From Candidatus Baltobacteraceae bacterium (GTDB taxonomy: Bacteria > Vulcanimicrobiota > Vulcanimicrobiia > Vulcanimicrobiales > Vulcanimicrobiaceae): a stretch of DNA of 64,000 nucleotides. Made by a program: the position numbers and the translations under genes. The notes under the pieces are model-generated. The model saw nothing but the letters and a program-made list of their open reading frames with translations, was not told the DNA's origin and ran no database searches. The stretch is from contig DATJTX010000031.1 in assembly GCA_035502855.1 (NCBI GenBank), forward strand, positions 1 to 64,000. Direction: 5' to 3'. Below, piece by piece: positions 1,544 through 8,400 of the stretch (position 1 is the stretch's first letter; the number at the start of each line of letters is the position of its first letter).

Positions 1544-2680
1544 GTGATTGTCATAGCGATCCTCGTTGCGTTCCTCGTGCTCGTGAATCTCGCGTTCGCA
1601 TTTCGCAGCCAGTACATCGCCTTCAATTCCCGTTTTGCGCTCGAATCCGTCCCTGCGCCGAAGGTCGCGCCGAAAATCAGCATCATCGTGCCGGCGCGTA
1701 ACGAAGCGCACCAGATCGAACAATGCGTGCGCTCGCTGCTTGCGCAAGACTATCCCGACTTGGACGTCATCGTGCTGGACGATTGCTCCGAAGATCGTAC
1801 CGCGGCGATCGTTGCACGCGTCGCTGCCGAAGATCCGCGCTTGCGCTTGATCCACGGCGAGCCGTTGCCGGAAGGTTGGGTGGGGAAGCCGTGGGCGCTC
1901 GATCAGGGCGCCCGGCGTGCCGACGGGGACTGGCTGCTATTCACCGACGCCGACACGACGCATGAACCCGGCGCACTGAGTGCGGCGTTCGGCTACGCTC
2001 GCGCCGGCAATCTCGACGTACTCAGCGTGCTGACCGAACAGGTCATGCAGACGCCGGCCGAGCGGATCTTTCTGCCCAGCATTCTGTGGACGATCGCCTT
2101 TGCGATCGGATCGCTGAAGGCGATCAACGATCCGGCGCGCGAGAGCGCCTTGTTCAACGGCCAGTACGTGCTCGCTTCGCGCCGTGCGTACGCCGCGATC
2201 GGCGGCCACGAAGCGGTGCGCGGCGAGATCGCCGAGGATCTCGAGCTCGCGCGGCGATTCAAGCGCGATGGTCGCTTTCGTACCGCGCTCGTCAACGGGA
2301 ATGGGCTCGTACGCGTGCGGATGTACTGTTCCTTCCGTGAGCTCTGGCAAGGGTTCGTCAAGAATTTTTGGGTCGGCGCGCGCGATCAACATGTGCTGGC
2401 GGCAATCGGCGTGTTCTTGCTCGCCTGCGTCTCCCCGCTCACGCCGATCGTGCTCATCGCCGCGCTCGTCCTGCACGCATCGGCATTTGCCGTCGCGCTG
2501 GCGATCGCGATGTGCTCGGCGATCGCCGGTGCGGCGCCCGGCATGCGGCGGCTCGGGCTCGGTGCGTCGTCGCCGCTCTATCTACCGATCGGTATAAGCG
2601 CGGTGGCGGCCATTTTCCTCACGTCAATCGTTCGTCACGCCTGCGGCGGCGTTTCCTGGCGCGGTCGTCGGTATGCTTGA
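1544..2680 (+). CDS. Family 2 glycosyltransferase (HpnB/CrtQ-like)
   Basis: This 378-residue membrane-anchored glycosyltransferase has an N-terminal hydrophobic helix (about 1-20). The GT-A domain follows: ISIIVPARNEAHQIEQC near 45-61, VLDDCSEDRT, a GWVGKPWAL segment, and the metal-binding FTDADTTHEPG near 130. Two to three C-terminal membrane helices follow. GWxGKxWA is shared by hopanoid-associated HpnB and carotenoid CrtQ enzymes, which suggests a lipid or isoprenoid acceptor, but the substrate cannot be read from sequence. The start is GTG at 1544. It overlaps the stop of a 13-codon reading frame (ATG 1506), which may be a coincidental leader. The stop codon overlaps the -35 box of the ilv promoter. 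The gene is therefore separate from the ilv operon. Confidence 0.8.
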   Translation: MIVIAILVAFLVLVNLAFAFRSQYIAFNSRFALESVPAPKVAPKISIIVPARNEAHQIEQCVRSLLAQDYPDLDVIVLDDCSEDRTAAIVARVAAEDPRLRLIHGEPLPEGWVGKPWALDQGARRADGDWLLFTDADTTHEPGALSAAFGYARAGNLDVLSVLTEQVMQTPAERIFLPSILWTIAFAIGSLKAINDPARESALFNGQYVLASRRAYAAIGGHEAVRGEIAEDLELARRFKRDGRFRTALVNGNGLVRVRMYCSFRELWQGFVKNFWVGARDQHVLAAIGVFLLACVSPLTPIVLIAALVLHASAFAVALAIAMCSAIAGAAPGMRRLGLGASSPLYLPIGISAVAAIFLTSIVRHACGGVSWRGRRYA

Positions 2681-2705
2681 CATGCCGAATCCGGCATGGT
2701 AGGGT
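2677..2705 (+). promoter_or_regulatory. ilv operon promoter with spacer operator
   Basis: A consensus -35 TTGACA (2677-2682) is followed after 17 nt by TAGGGT (2700-2705). The spacer carries a perfect 7-bp inverted repeat CATGCCG-AATC-CGGCATG (2681-2698), a likely repressor operator between the boxes. Transcription is expected to start near 2711-2713, essentially at the leader-peptide ATG, so the message would be leaderless. Confidence 0.75.
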
Positions 2706-2712
2706 GCGAGAA

Positions 2713-2796
2713 ATGCTTCTGACCGCGCTCCTCATCGTAGTCCTCGTCCTTATTAGCCGTTCGTCGCCGAATCGGTTGGGATTGACTACTGCGTAA
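2713..2796 (+). CDS. ilv operon leader peptide
   Basis: This 27-codon frame begins at ATG 2713. Eleven of residues 2-14 are Leu, Ile or Val (LLTALLIVVLVLI), followed by SRSSPN and a short tail ending in TAA. It sits between a strong promoter and a perfect terminator hairpin ahead of ilvB, as do ivbL and ilvL in enterobacteria. The control codons end at 2754. That would place the leading edge of a ribosome stalled for charged Leu/Ile/Val tRNA just before the antiterminator strand that begins at 2765. It has no ribosome binding site because transcription probably starts at or next to the ATG. The product has no expected function beyond sensing aminoacyl-tRNA supply. Confidence 0.88.
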   Translation: MLLTALLIVVLVLISRSSPNRLGLTTA

Positions 2797-2841
2797 GGAT
2801 TAGCGAAAAACGCACTAGCACGAGGCCCCGCCGGTTCGGCG
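2765..2841 (+). promoter_or_regulatory. ilv attenuator: antiterminator pairing
   Basis: CGCCGAATCGG (2765-2775), inside the leader ORF and downstream of the Leu/Ile/Val codons, can pair over 11 bp (one G-U) with CCGGTTCGGCG (2831-2841). The latter covers the loop and 3' arm of the terminator, so the two structures exclude each other. A ribosome stalled at the control codons leaves 2765-2775 free and gives readthrough. A ribosome that reaches the stop covers it and allows termination. Confidence 0.8.
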
Positions 2842-2856
2842 GGGCCTCGTGTTTTC
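2819..2856 (+). terminator. ilv attenuator terminator
   Basis: A perfect 15-bp GC-rich stem (2819-2833 with 2837-2851) and a 3-nt loop are followed by TTTTCTTTA. This is a strong intrinsic terminator placed between the leader-peptide stop (2796) and the ilvB ribosome binding site (2863-2867). Confidence 0.92.
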
Positions 2857-2872
2857 TTTATTGGAGGTCATC

Positions 2873-4567
2873 GTGCACGGGAGGCGTACGGGCGCAGCCA
2901 TCGTTCTCGATACGCTCGAGAACCTCGGGGTCGAAACGGTCTTCGGGTATCCGGGCGGCGCGATCATGCCGCTCTATGACGCGCTCTACGATCACCGGCT
3001 CGCGCACGTACTGGTACGGCACGAAGCGGCCGCCGTTTTTGCCGCAAGCGGCTACGCGCGCTCGACCGGACGCACCGGCGTCTGCGTCGCGACCTCAGGG
3101 CCCGGTGCGACGAATCTGATCACCGGCATCGTCGATGCGCTGATGGACAACGTCCCGCTCGTCGCGCTGACCGGACAAGTGCGCACGGCGGTGATGGGAA
3201 CCGACGCATTCCAGGAAGTCGACGTCGCGGCGATTACTCATCAGGTGACCAAACGCAACATCGTCGTGCGCTCGATCGATCAGATCGAGCCCGCGCTGCG
3301 CGAGGCGTTTTCGTTGGCTTCGGGTTCGCGGCCGGGGCCCGTGCTGGTCGATCTTCCAACCGACGTGCTGCGGGCGCTCGTGCCTTCAGAGCACCTCGAT
3401 CCGCGTGTCGAATCGAGTTCGCCTCGGGCCAAGCCGCAGGCTGAGCCGGCGTTGCTCGACGCGGCGATCGCCGCGCTGGCAACGGCGGAGCGGCCGGTCG
3501 TCATCGTCGGCGGCGGCGCGCGCTGGTCGGGCGCGACCGAGGTCTTTCGCTCGTTCGCGGCGCGCGCCGGTGCTCCGATCGTGGCGACGCTCCACGGCTT
3601 GGGGGCGGCGTATCCGGGCGACCCTGCCTTCTTGGGAATGCTCGGTATGCACGGCTGGAAGCGCGCGAATCATGCGGTCGCGAAAGCCGACGTGATCTTC
3701 GCGCTCGGCATGCGCTTCGACGACCGCGTGACCGGCGATCCGTCGAAATTCGCACCCAATGCGCGTACGATCGTGCACGCCGATATCGATCGCTCCGAGT
3801 TCAACAAGGTCGTGCCCGCGCAGATCACGCTGCACGGCGACTTGCGCGAAACGCTGGTCGCGCTCGATCATCGCCTGGCTCGCGTCGCCCTTCCCTCGTT
3901 CGCGCAGTGGCGCGCGCAGGCGTGCGCTCCGCACGAACGGCTACCTTGCGACGATACGCGCGACGACCACCTCTCCGCAACCGATTTTCTGGATGCGCTC
4001 TTCGCCGCGCTGCCCGCCGACGCAATCGTCAGCACCGACGTCGGCCAGCATCAGATGTGGGCGGCGCAGCGCGTGCGTGCGAGTCATCCGCAGCACTTCC
4101 TCACCTCGGGCGGCCTGGGTTCGATGGGTTTCGGTTTGCCGGCCGCGATCGGCGCGCAGGTCGCTCATCCGGGGCGCACCGTGGTCGCGATCGTCGGCGA
4201 CGGCGGCTTCCAAATGTCGATGGCGGAACTCGCAACACTGCGCCGGCACGATCTGCCGGTCAAGATCGTCTTGCTCGACAACCGCAACCTCGGCATGGTG
4301 CGGCAGTGGCAGGAGCTCTTTTACAATGCGCGCTACTCGGCAACGGCGCTGCCCGACAATCCCGAGTTCACCACGATTGCACGCGCCTACGGAGTCGAAG
4401 CGCGTCTGGTCGATCACGCGAACGCCGTGGACGCGGCGATCGCGCGGATGATCGAATCGTCAGGGCCGATGTTGTTGCACTGTGCATGCTATCCGCACGA
4501 GAACGTGTGGCCGATCATCCCGTCGGGCAAGGGCGTCGACGATCTGCTCGAGGCCTTACCGGCGTGA
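2873..4567 (+). CDS. ilvB: Acetolactate synthase, large subunit
   Basis: This ThDP- and FAD-dependent enzyme condenses pyruvate with pyruvate or 2-oxobutyrate, the first common step to valine, leucine and isoleucine. The 564-residue protein opens with FGYPGGAIMPLYDAL and the activating Glu51 in RHEAA. It continues with TSGPGATNLITGI and the central FAD/ADP-type domain, and ends with the ThDP motif IVGDGGFQMSMAELATL and GMVRQWQELF. I chose the GTG at 2873 because GGAGG lies 5 nt upstream. A frame-open GTG at 2849 falls inside the terminator hairpin and is unlikely. It is the first structural gene of the attenuated ilv operon and overlaps the next gene by 4 nt. Confidence 0.97.
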   Translation: MHGRRTGAAIVLDTLENLGVETVFGYPGGAIMPLYDALYDHRLAHVLVRHEAAAVFAASGYARSTGRTGVCVATSGPGATNLITGIVDALMDNVPLVALTGQVRTAVMGTDAFQEVDVAAITHQVTKRNIVVRSIDQIEPALREAFSLASGSRPGPVLVDLPTDVLRALVPSEHLDPRVESSSPRAKPQAEPALLDAAIAALATAERPVVIVGGGARWSGATEVFRSFAARAGAPIVATLHGLGAAYPGDPAFLGMLGMHGWKRANHAVAKADVIFALGMRFDDRVTGDPSKFAPNARTIVHADIDRSEFNKVVPAQITLHGDLRETLVALDHRLARVALPSFAQWRAQACAPHERLPCDDTRDDHLSATDFLDALFAALPADAIVSTDVGQHQMWAAQRVRASHPQHFLTSGGLGSMGFGLPAAIGAQVAHPGRTVVAIVGDGGFQMSMAELATLRRHDLPVKIVLLDNRNLGMVRQWQELFYNARYSATALPDNPEFTTIARAYGVEARLVDHANAVDAAIARMIESSGPMLLHCACYPHENVWPIIPSGKGVDDLLEALPA

Positions 4568-4776
4568 GAACCGTTACCGCGACCGACGGCCGGCTGCTCG
4601 CCCGCATCATTCACCTTGCCCACCGCTTCGGTTGCACGTATACCAGCGTCGCCTCGCAGCGCGCCGGCGCCGCCTATCGCATCGAGTTCGCTTTCGCGGG
4701 CCCGGGCGATGCGCTGCGCCGTCTCGATGCCCAAATCACCAAACTACTCGATGACGACAGGGAGACCATGGAATGA
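4564..4776 (+). CDS. Very short acetolactate synthase regulatory subunit (IlvM-like)
   Basis: The 70-residue protein lies between ilvB and ilvC, overlapping both by 4 nt (GTGA, ATGA). Its pattern is a beta strand, a [10 protein letters not shown] helix, then TYTSVASQR and a YRIEFAFAG strand, and a final helix [15 protein letters not shown]. This matches a single ACT-like domain as in E. coli IlvM (87 aa) rather than the usual two-domain IlvN of about 160-170 aa. Position and fold pattern support it as the subunit that activates IlvB. The lack of the C-terminal domain suggests reduced or absent valine feedback control, which would leave attenuation as the main control. The identification rests on context plus weak similarity. 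Confidence 0.75.
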
Positions 4777-5822
4777 ACGCCCTCTACGATCACGATACCG
4801 ACGCAGGGACGCTGCGCGGCAAAACGATCGCCATTATCGGCTACGGCAGCCAAGGCCGCGCGCATGCGCTCAACCTGCATGAGTCGGGAGCGCGCGTGGT
4901 CGTCGGACTGCGCGAAGGCTCCGCCTCGTTCGAGGAAGCGAAGCGCGACGGTCTCGACGCGCAGACGGTCTCGCATGCCGTCTCGATTGCCGACGTGGTG
5001 ATGGTACTCGCGCCGGACGAAGAGCACGGCGCGCTCTACATGCGCCAGATCCACGAGCACCTCGCGCCCGGGGCGTATCTCGCCTTTGCTCATGGGTTCT
5101 CGATTCACTTCGGAACGGTCGTTCCGCCCAAGACGGTGAACGTGTTCATGGTCGCGCCGAAAGGGCCCGGTTCGCTCGTCCGCACCGAGTACGAAGCCGG
5201 ACGCGGCGTGCCGGCGTTGATCGCCGTGCATCAAGATCCGAGCGGCGATACGCGCGCGGTGGCGCTTGCGTATGCGGCCGGAATCGGCGCCGGACGCGCC
5301 GGCATACTCGAGACGACGTTCAAGGAAGAGACCGAAACCGATCTCTTCGGCGAGCAAGCCGTGCTCTGCGGCGGGCTCACCTCGCTGATCCAAGCGGGCT
5401 TCGAAACGCTGGTGGAAGCCGGCTACGCGCCGGAGATGGCCTACTTCGAATGTATGCACGAGATGAAACTCATCGTCGACTTGCTCTATGCGCGCGGCAT
5501 CGAAGGGATGCGCGATGGTATCAGCAACACCGCCCAATTCGGCGACTACACGCGTGGGCCGCGCGTCATCGGGAGCGAATCGAGGGCGGCGATGCGCGCG
5601 ATTCTCGCCGAGATCCAGAGCGGCGCGTTCGCGCAGGAATGGGTCACCGAGCACGCGGCGGGCAAACCGCGCTTCAACGAATACAAGCGCCGTTCCGACG
5701 CGCACCCGATCGAGCGCATCGGCGCGCAGCTGCGCTCGCTGATGCCGTGGATGCGCGAACCGGCGATCGCGGCCGAGGCGAAGGCCCGTACCGACGAGGA
5801 CATGAAGTTCAGGGTATGCTGA
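4773..5822 (+). CDS. ilvC: Ketol-acid reductoisomerase (class I)
   Basis: This enzyme isomerises and reduces 2-acetolactate or 2-aceto-2-hydroxybutyrate with NAD(P)H and Mg2+. The 349-residue protein has the nucleotide-binding GYGSQG at 23-28 after KTIAII, the VAPKGPG segment, and the knotted C-terminal domain. Metal-binding carboxylates are visible in [17 protein letters not shown] and in [14 protein letters not shown]. The length fits the short class I form. The ATG at 4773 overlaps the preceding stop (ATGA). The 3' end overlaps ilvD by 7 nt, indicating translational coupling across the operon. Confidence 0.97.
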
Positions 5823-7486
5823 GTCACATTCTCACCCAGGGCGCCACGCGCGCCGCGGCGCGCGCGATGTTCAAGGCCAATGGCTTCACCGACGAGGATT
5901 TGCGTAAGCCCTTGGTCGGTGTTGCCAACACGTGGGTGGAGACGATGCCATGCGGGTACCATCTGCGCGAGCTGGCCGAGCACGTCAAGGCCGGCGTGCG
6001 GGCGGCGGGCGGCACGCCGATGGAATTCAATACGATCGCGATCAGCGACGGTATCACGATGGGGACGCCCGGAATGAAAGGTTCGCTGATCAGCCGCGAG
6101 GTGATCGCCGATTCGATCGAATTGATCGGGCGCTCGCATTACTTCGATGCGATGGTGGGGTTGGTCGGCTGCGACAAGACCATACCCGGAACAGCGATGG
6201 CGTTTGCGCGTTTGAACGTTCCGTCGGTGATGATTTACGGCGGATCGATCGCACCGGGAAAGCTCGACGGGCGGGATCTCACGATCGTCGACGTGTTCGA
6301 AGCGATCGGCGCGCACGCACGCGGGACGATCGACGATGCGCAGCTCAAAATCATCGAAGATCGCGCTTGTCCGGGGCCCGGCGCGTGTGGTGGGCAGTAC
6401 ACCGCCAATACGATGGCGATGGCGATGGAATACCTCGGGCTCTCGCCCGTCGGCAGCGCCAGTCCGGGCGCAACGTCGCAGCGGCGCGCGCAGTGGGCGC
6501 ATGACGCGGGCACGATCGTCATGGAGCTGCTCGCCAAGGAGGTTCGTCCGCGCGACCTGCTCACCCGCGCCTCGTTCTTGAACGCGATCGCGCTCGCGGC
6601 GGCAACCGGCGGCTCGACCAACAGCGTGCTGCATCTGCTCGCGATCGCGCACGAGGCGGGCGCGCAGCTCTCGATCGAGGACTTCGATAGCGTGAGCCGG
6701 CGCACGCCGATCATCGCCGATCTGCGTCCGGGCGGAAAATACGTCGCGCTCGACGTCGATGCGGCGGGCGGAACGCAATTGCTCGGCCAGCGTCTCGCGC
6801 AAGGCCATCTCGTCGACGTGTCGGTGATCACCGCGACCGGCCGTAGTTTCGCGCAAGAGGTCGAAGGCGCGGTCGAAACGCCCGGACAAGCGGTGATCGC
6901 GACCGCGGAGCGTCCCTTCAAACCGCACGGCGGCTTGATCATTCTCAAAGGAAATCTCGCCCCGGCGGGCGCGGTCGTCAAGATCGCCGGCTCGGAACGG
7001 CTCTATCACCGCGGTCCGGCGCGCGTATTCAATTCGGAAGAAGCGGCGATGCAGGCGATCCTCGATGACGAGATCATCGCGGGTGACGTGGTTGTGATTG
7101 CCTACGAAGGTCCCAAAGGCGGCCCCGGTATGCGCGAGATGCTCAGCGTAACCGGCGCCATCGTCGGCGCCGGTTTGGGCGAAAGCGTCGCGCTCGTCAC
7201 CGACGGGCGCTTTTCGGGTGGAACGCACGGCTTGATGGTTGGACACGTCGCGCCCGAAGCGGCCGTCGGCGGGCCGCTTGCCGCCGTGCGCGACGGCGAC
7301 GAGATCATCATCGACGTTGAAGCGCGTGTGCTCGACCTTGCCGTCGCTCCGCCGGTGATCGCCGAGCGTTTGCACGTATGGCGCGCACCCGAGCCGAACT
7401 TTCGCGGCGGCGTCTTCGCCAAGTACGCGGCGACGGTCGGATCGGCCGCGCACGGCGCGGTAACCACGACCGAGGTCTGCCCGTGA
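5816..7486 (+). CDS. ilvD: Dihydroxy-acid dehydratase
   Basis: This iron-sulfur enzyme dehydrates 2,3-dihydroxy acids to 2-oxo acids in the valine, leucine and isoleucine pathway. The 556-residue protein shows the expected cluster and metal signatures: [16 protein letters not shown] near the start, [15 protein letters not shown], and [19 protein letters not shown]. The C-terminal region has [16 protein letters not shown] and [16 protein letters not shown]. The start ATG 5816 lies inside the end of ilvC. A longer open frame begins at 5450, but it runs through ilvC and has no family sequence there. The next gene starts 4 nt before the stop. Confidence 0.97.
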
Positions 7487-8400
7487 TTGCAACGGCTCCG
7501 GCGCGCGAGCGCATGTGGTTCGACGGCGAGCTGGTCGACGCGGACGAGATCGCGGTTCGGCCCTTCACCCACGCGCTGCACTACGGTTCAGGGGTCTTCG
7601 AAGGCATTCGCGCGTACGAAACACGCAAGGGCACGGGCGTCTTTCGGTTGAGCGACCATCTGCGCCGTTTCTTCGTTTCCGCGGATGTCTACGGCTTGCA
7701 CGTTCCGTACGACCAGGAAACGCTGGCGCGCGCGGTTTTCGCAACGTTAGAGGCCAACGCGTTTAGCAGCGGCTACATTCGACCGCTGGCGTACTTCGGC
7801 GAGAAGGGTATCTCGCTCGCCCCCACCTTTCACTGTCCGACGCACGTTCTGATCGCGCTCAAGCCGCTGGCCGGTTCGCTGCTCGGAGAATCGGCGGGCA
7901 TTCGGGTGACGATGTCTCCCTGGCAGAAGACGCCGTCGCGCTCGCTGCCCTCGACGGTAAAGGCCTGCGGGCATTACACCAATTCGATTTTGGCGCTTCA
8001 GGACGCGCAGCGTCGCGGATTCGAGGAAGCCATTTTGCTCAACGACCGCGGCGACGTAGCCGAGGGCACCGGCGAAAACATCTTCGTCGTGAGGAACGGC
8101 GCGCTACGGACCAACGATGCGAGCGCCGACATCCTGGCGGGAATCACGCAGGCCAGCGTGGTCGAGCTGGCACGGGATCGCGGCATGACGGTTGAAATCG
8201 GCAACATCACGCCGGCGGATCTGCTTGCGGCCGATGAGATCTTCTTCACCGGTACGGCGGCCGAGGTGATGCCGATCCTTCAGATCGATGACTACGTGTT
8301 GCCGCAAGCGCGTCCGGTCACCGACGAACTCTGCCGCGCCTACGCGCGCGCCGTTCGCGGAGCCGATCCGCGTCATCCCGGCTGGGTTGAATACGCGTAA
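7483..8400 (+). CDS. ilvE: Branched-chain amino acid aminotransferase
   Basis: This fold-type IV PLP enzyme performs the last step of valine, leucine and isoleucine synthesis using glutamate. The 305-residue protein has MWFDGELVDADEI at its start, then HYGSGVFEGIRAYET and YIRPLAYFGEKG. The PLP lysine is Lys160 in STVKACGHYTNS, followed by NDRGDVAEGTGENIF and TGTAAEV. The length is normal for bacterial IlvE. The GTG at 7483 overlaps the ilvD stop (GTGA). It is the last gene of the ilv operon; a convergent marR gene begins 4 nt further on, and no clear intrinsic terminator separates them. Confidence 0.96.
   Translation: MIATAPARERMWFDGELVDADEIAVRPFTHALHYGSGVFEGIRAYETRKGTGVFRLSDHLRRFFVSADVYGLHVPYDQETLARAVFATLEANAFSSGYIRPLAYFGEKGISLAPTFHCPTHVLIALKPLAGSLLGESAGIRVTMSPWQKTPSRSLPSTVKACGHYTNSILALQDAQRRGFEEAILLNDRGDVAEGTGENIFVVRNGALRTNDASADILAGITQASVVELARDRGMTVEIGNITPADLLAADEIFFTGTAAEVMPILQIDDYVLPQARPVTDELCRAYARAVRGADPRHPGWVEYA

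Follow-up and report, generated by a model that had tools for sequence, protein, structure and literature searches.

Organization of the ilv locus

The window analysed here is a 64-kb stretch of DNA from the genome (G000) of an uncultured bacterium that belongs to the phylum Eremiobacterota and to the same family as Vulcanimicrobium alpinum. On the 3' side of the leader region the gene order is ilvB, a 68-aa ORF, ilvC, ilvD and an ilvE-like gene (Table 1), whereas the gene upstream of the leader, encoding a glycosyltransferase on the same strand, ends at position 2680. The 68-aa ORF occupies the usual place of ilvN and is possibly a very short regulatory subunit.

Table 1. Positions of the leader elements and of the ilv genes in the window
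Feature	Position	Strand	Basis
-35 box TTGACA	2677-2682	+	read from sequence; TTGAC counterpart in all 19 ilv leaders
-10 box TAGGGT	2700-2705	+	weak consensus match; arrangement kept in relatives
Leader-peptide ORF, apparently leaderless, 27 codons + stop, MLLTALLIVVLVLISRSSPNRLGLTTA	2713-2796	+	sequence; peptide type kept in 18 relatives
Control codons, 11/13 Leu/Ile/Val (residues 2-14), the last being the rare pair CTT ATT	2716-2754	+	leader versus window-gene codon usage
1:2 hairpin (anti-antiterminator), AGCCGUUCG (2755-2763) with CGAA-U-CGGUU (2768-2777)	2755-2777	+	folding, partner-swap test, covariation
Antiterminator 2:3	2765-2841	+	folding; covariation
Intrinsic terminator hairpin 3:4, GC-rich, 2819-2833 : 2837-2851, 15 perfect bp, loop GTT	2819-2851	+	scan, folding, covariation
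U-tract	2852-2862	+	sequence
Shine-Dalgarno sequence GGAGG of ilvB	2863-2867	+	-10.0 kcal/mol with anti-SD
ilvB, acetolactate synthase large subunit, first structural gene, GTG start	2873-4567	+	TPP enzyme N, M, C domains
68-aa ORF between ilvB and ilvC	4570-4776		no Pfam match
ilvC, ketol-acid reductoisomerase	4773-5822	+	KARI_N, KARI_C
ilvD, dihydroxy-acid dehydratase	5816-7486	+	ILVD_EDD
ilvE-like class IV aminotransferase	7483-8400	+	Aminotran_4

The initial annotation placed a consensus promoter in front of the leader. The TTGACA hexamer and its distance of 17 nt from TAGGGT stood up to inspection, and this arrangement is kept in relatives, but the -10 hexamer agrees with the consensus at three of six positions only, and for this reason the promoter was missed by a sigma-70 consensus scan. 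The spacer contains a perfect inverted repeat, CATGCCG-AATC-CGGCATG (2681-2698), which was considered as an operator. Because it is missing in the same-genus locus L002 and in the other relatives inspected, the repeat was treated as a chance occurrence, which it probably is.

An essentially leaderless start had been noted initially. The leader ATG at 2713 lies 7 nt 3' of the -10 box, and its position is conserved: across the ilv leaders the start is located 7-14 nt after the presumed -10 box, and the TTGAC of the -35 box lies 36-43 nt before the ATG in 19 ilv leaders. Anti-SD pairing is weak at the leader start compared with the -10.0 kcal/mol obtained at ilvB. The ORF, whose stop codon is at 2794, is thus apparently leaderless. 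Inspection of the translation confirmed the Leu/Ile/Val run. No other ATG ORF of 12-40 aa in the 64-kb window has 11 such residues among 13, and none was found in 30 base-shuffled windows. Codon choice in the leaders differs from that in seven genes of the window: ATT makes up 89% of the Ile codons in leaders versus 15% in the genes, and CTT 44% versus 6% of the Leu codons. Rare codons are thus favoured in the control run, and CTT ATT are the usual final control codons across the ilv leaders.

Alternative RNA structures of the leader

The perfect terminator stem followed by a U-run was found as originally described (Table 1), and was scored as 17 pairs by the terminator scan, which found two terminator-like sites in 0.9 kb versus 0.6 in shuffles. 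The 11-bp pairing 2765-2775 : 2831-2841, previously proposed as the antiterminator, is present (one of the pairs is G-U), but it is only the core of a larger structure. Folding yielded a long imperfect hairpin, 2765-2794 : 2810-2841, in which 2765-2776 pairs with 2830-2841, 2778-2780 with 2826-2828 and 2782-2784 with 2821-2823, and the inner pairs are 2786-2788 : 2816-2818 and 2790-2794 : 2810-2814.

When a stall at Ile14 was simulated by leaving the RNA free from 2765, the antiterminator was the minimum-energy fold for exposed ends 2834 to 2846 (reaching -36.3 kcal/mol for ends up to 2846), and the terminator was better only from exposed end 2849.

The initial annotation had proposed direct two-state switching in place of the four-segment layout, and had missed the 1:2 hairpin, which lies directly 3' of the last control codon. 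Since most relatives can pair segment 1 with segment 2, the layout is the usual one of 1:2, 2:3 and 3:4 pairings.

Conservation and covariation in relatives

The window was aligned with 18 relatives found via IlvB, loci on the minus strand being reversed. Loss of the leader ORF or of the hairpin in close relatives was looked for, but the leader is kept, with altered sequence, in the 18 aligned relatives. The leader peptides of the ilv set are 19-27 codons long, nearly all have the Leu/Ile/Val run (weakest in L007), and all leaders have a GC-rich terminator. Conserved, too, is the spacing between control codons and antiterminator strand, which had been likened to a ribosome footprint. The operons of V. 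alpinum (G009) and of one more genome (G020) begin with ilvC, and there the leader precedes ilvC. About half of the genomes of family f1, nearly complete ones among them, are without a close ilvB, and branched-chain amino acid synthesis appears to be patchy across this family.

As foreseen for an attenuator, the mutually exclusive 2:3 and 3:4 stems are both conserved and covary. In the alignment pairing reaches 87% in the 3:4 stem, where 41 double changes occur, and its covariation score is 0.416 versus 0.205 after shuffling, a procedure that leaves sequence relatedness in. The 2:3 pairing is 71% paired, its true register is clearly the best, and compensatory changes are seen, for example AU, UA and GC at column pair 63-129; in L004, L006 and L011 the pairing is weaker or shifted in the aligned core. 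Pairing of each segment with its own partner was also compared with pairing to the partner of another species (17 sequences, 20,000 permutations). For 2:3 the mean energy was -19.35 kcal/mol with own and -15.35 kcal/mol with permuted partners, and none of the 20,000 permutations reached the own value. The control segment, i.e. the control codon run, showed no preference for its own partner (11,201/20,000).

Whether the 1:2 hairpin is functional decides between the four-segment layout and a bare switch between terminator and antiterminator. In favour of the latter, segment 2 can pair directly with the terminator apex, and the own 1:2 partners give no advantage over swapped ones in L011, L012 and L013. 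In the whole set, however, own partners are better than swapped ones (4/20,000 permutations), the 1:2 pairs show substitutions in both strands, and the leader-alone fold of G000 (-30.7 kcal/mol) contains the hairpin. In the alignment 1:2 is 61% paired, more than in shuffles, but a shift by one position scores as well, and the precise register is therefore known with less confidence than for 2:3. On balance a switch lacking a functional 1:2 hairpin seems improbable.

An alternative to ribosome stalling, namely control by a protein or by an RNA that binds a ligand or tRNA (T-box, ppGpp riboswitch), was also considered, as a ppGpp riboswitch can control ilvB in other bacteria (PMC10272879). A covariance-model search of the ilv leader with the Rfam leader families and T-box gave no match at the gathering score, sub-threshold matches appearing only in permissive scans. 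No T-box was found in the family of V. alpinum and G000; three T-box-like matches just under the gathering score (L204-L206) are confined to another family of the phylum, f16. The conserved feature is moreover codon identity, with peptides varying with the pathway, which makes such control very unlikely. Equally little can be said for the hairpin being a mere terminator of the glycosyltransferase gene and the Leu/Ile/Val-rich ORF a product of chance: the terminator does lie 3' of that gene on the same strand, but leader, promoter and terminator occur together before ilv genes despite differing upstream sequence, the alternative pairings covary, and shuffled windows gave no comparable ORF.

Proposed mechanism of attenuation

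The preferred reading is that a classical ribosome-mediated transcription attenuator governs the ilvB-C-D-E operon, and this is very probably correct. The locus has a short leader ORF, in which the codons for the regulated amino acids form a run, an intrinsic terminator between this ORF and the first gene, a conserved 2:3 pairing that excludes the likewise conserved 3:4 pairing, and a 1:2 hairpin that a ribosome stalled on the control codons could mask, although its register is less certain in some relatives. These elements, their conservation, the covariation of the alternative pairings and the energetics are observed, and the comparative evidence strongly supports the attenuation reading. 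The earlier suggestion of ilv attenuation outside Enterobacteria is thereby supported by elements conserved, and pairings covarying, in the relatives from Eremiobacterota; the proposed alignment of related genomes gave covariation in both stems and Leu/Ile/Val codons in nearly all leaders.

The start site, leader translation, stalling, termination and the response to amino acids are inferred from the arrangement of these elements, and would be connected as follows. Transcription would start at or adjoining the leader AUG, so that the ribosome loads at the 5' end of the RNA. With charged tRNAs for Leu, Ile and Val at hand, the ribosome would pass the control codons and reach the stop codon, where it would disrupt segment 2, or 1:2 would re-form behind it; in either case the 3:4 terminator could form and transcription would end at about 2855-2860. 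A point against the model is that in G000 the core of segment 2 ends 18 nt before the stop codon, so that a ribosome halted at this codon would directly disrupt only the inner part of 2:3. If any of Leu, Ile or Val is scarce, the ribosome would stall at codons up to Ile14, where its A site would be at 2752 and its leading edge at about 2764. Segment 1 would then be masked and segment 2 left free from 2765, to capture the emerging 5' arm and loop of the terminator ahead of the complete 3' arm, and with 2:3 formed transcription would proceed into ilvB.

Comparison with known attenuators

In Enterobacteria the ilvL (ilvGMEDA) and ivbL (ilvBN) leaders follow the classical 1:2, 2:3, 3:4 logic, encode a Leu/Ile/Val-rich peptide, and are translated from a ribosome-binding site. 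The Eremiobacterota leader shares this logic and peptide type but its translation is apparently leaderless. Ribosome-mediated attenuation of ilvB has been demonstrated experimentally in C. glutamicum (PMC11857589) and M. tuberculosis (PMC13236596), it was predicted in other Actinobacteria (PMC1262725), and ilvB motifs in several phyla have been suggested to work in this way (PMC10272879). With C. glutamicum ilvBNC and the ilvB-II motif (PMC11857589, PMC10272879), the latter compared by description only, the present leader has in common a Leu/Ile/Val ORF (here apparently leaderless), ilvB as the head gene, and an anti-antiterminator, antiterminator and terminator. It differs in phylum, in a longer Leu/Ile/Val run and in leader length (19-27 codons, versus typically 15-17); moreover, ilvB-II occurs once per genome, whereas the Eremiobacterota build is found before many amino acid operons. 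M. tuberculosis ilvB1NC (PMC13236596) has a similar short uORF rich in branched-chain amino acids, and the same logic, in which a stall frees the antiterminator and a ribosome at the stop permits the terminator, is proposed here. That system belongs to another phylum, differs in sequence and was demonstrated by experiment, while the Eremiobacterota leader is known from sequence comparison.

Further amino acid genes preceded by leaders of this build

A covariance model built from the ilv leaders was run on 149 genomes of the phylum, and recovered the ilv leaders plus further matches. Leaders were read from twenty model matches and from the matches in the window's own genome and in V. alpinum, and representative downstream genes were identified by NCBIfam and Pfam. 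As the -10 hexamers are variable, a strict promoter regular expression detected no leaders, which were instead read from the match regions. In G000, the same build recurs in leaders upstream of leuA, hom, hisG and a gene for an ssuA-like sulfonate-binding protein. In relatives they are found before pheA/DAHP synthase fusions, aroA, ilvA, ilvE, cysI (sulfite reductase), cysH (PAPS reductase), and tauE-like and aspartate kinase-like genes. No leader was seen in the stretch inspected at the trpE-like locus of G000 (L116).

The G000 leuA leader (L147, C20:7318-7453) encodes the Leu-rich peptide MLVTSLLLLALALVGRSASNRLGLTTA and is near-identical to the ilvB leader 3' of the codon run. A Thr/Met/Ile/Cys-rich leader precedes the homoserine dehydrogenase gene (L171, C37) and a Met/Cys leader the ssuA-like gene (L148, C25). 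The hisG leader (L115, C21), found without the ilv model, encodes MSLAQAHVHHHHHHGFCRIACDDCLT with seven His residues and has its terminator directly before hisG; it is probably a histidine attenuator of the ilv-leader build. Peptides were selected visually, at the position expected for a leaderless start, and residue classes were assigned from pathway knowledge; on this basis peptide and pathway matched in 26 of 30 leaders (permuted mean 8.4, maximum 17; 0/20,000 permutations). In the non-ilv leaders pairing with the own terminator was better than with swapped ones (0/20,000), and the distance from TTGAC to ATG was 36-41 nt in most.

Even with the terminator excluded, a resemblance to ilv leaders beyond shuffles is seen in the switch halves (segment 1 to terminator) of the leuA leader, the aspartate kinase-like and ssuA-like leaders and several pheA leaders; this resemblance is partly selected for, since most leaders were found via the ilv model. 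The independently found hisG leader also shows it (5/500), whereas it is not seen beyond shuffles for the hom leader or for one each of the pheA and ilvE leaders. We tentatively suggest that copies of one ancestral leaderless attenuator cassette may have come to lie in front of many Eremiobacterota amino acid operons, the switch half being retained and the codon run replaced. The family of V. alpinum and G000, which yielded no T-box, would then control an entire amino-acid regulon (Leu/Ile/Val, Leu, Ile, His, Phe/Tyr/Trp, Cys/Met, Thr/Met/Ile) by leaderless attenuators.

The Cys/Met leaders before cysI, ssuA-like and tauE-like genes, for which Cys sensing is predicted here, recall the leaderless cysteine attenuators of mycobacteria (Canestrari et al. 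2020, as cited in PMC9031893). According to PMC9031893, the mycobacterial polycysteine sORFs act on translation of downstream genes, whereas the Eremiobacterota leaders have an intrinsic terminator and a covarying antiterminator. The type of switch is known, with leaderless examples in Actinobacteria; what is new is the phylum and the apparent regulon, as a search of open-access papers gave no report of ribosome-mediated attenuation in Eremiobacterota. Complete, covarying ribosome-mediated attenuation with apparently leaderless ORFs is thus placed in this poorly studied phylum, and the results suggest a regulon of several attenuated operons, comparable to the enterobacterial one. Related leaders with differing codon runs would offer a natural experiment on the origin and re-targeting of the switch, and the predictions are directly testable because V. 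alpinum is in culture. At one locus in a relative (L112, G016:C206) ilvB and leuA are divergent, and each has a leader and a terminator.
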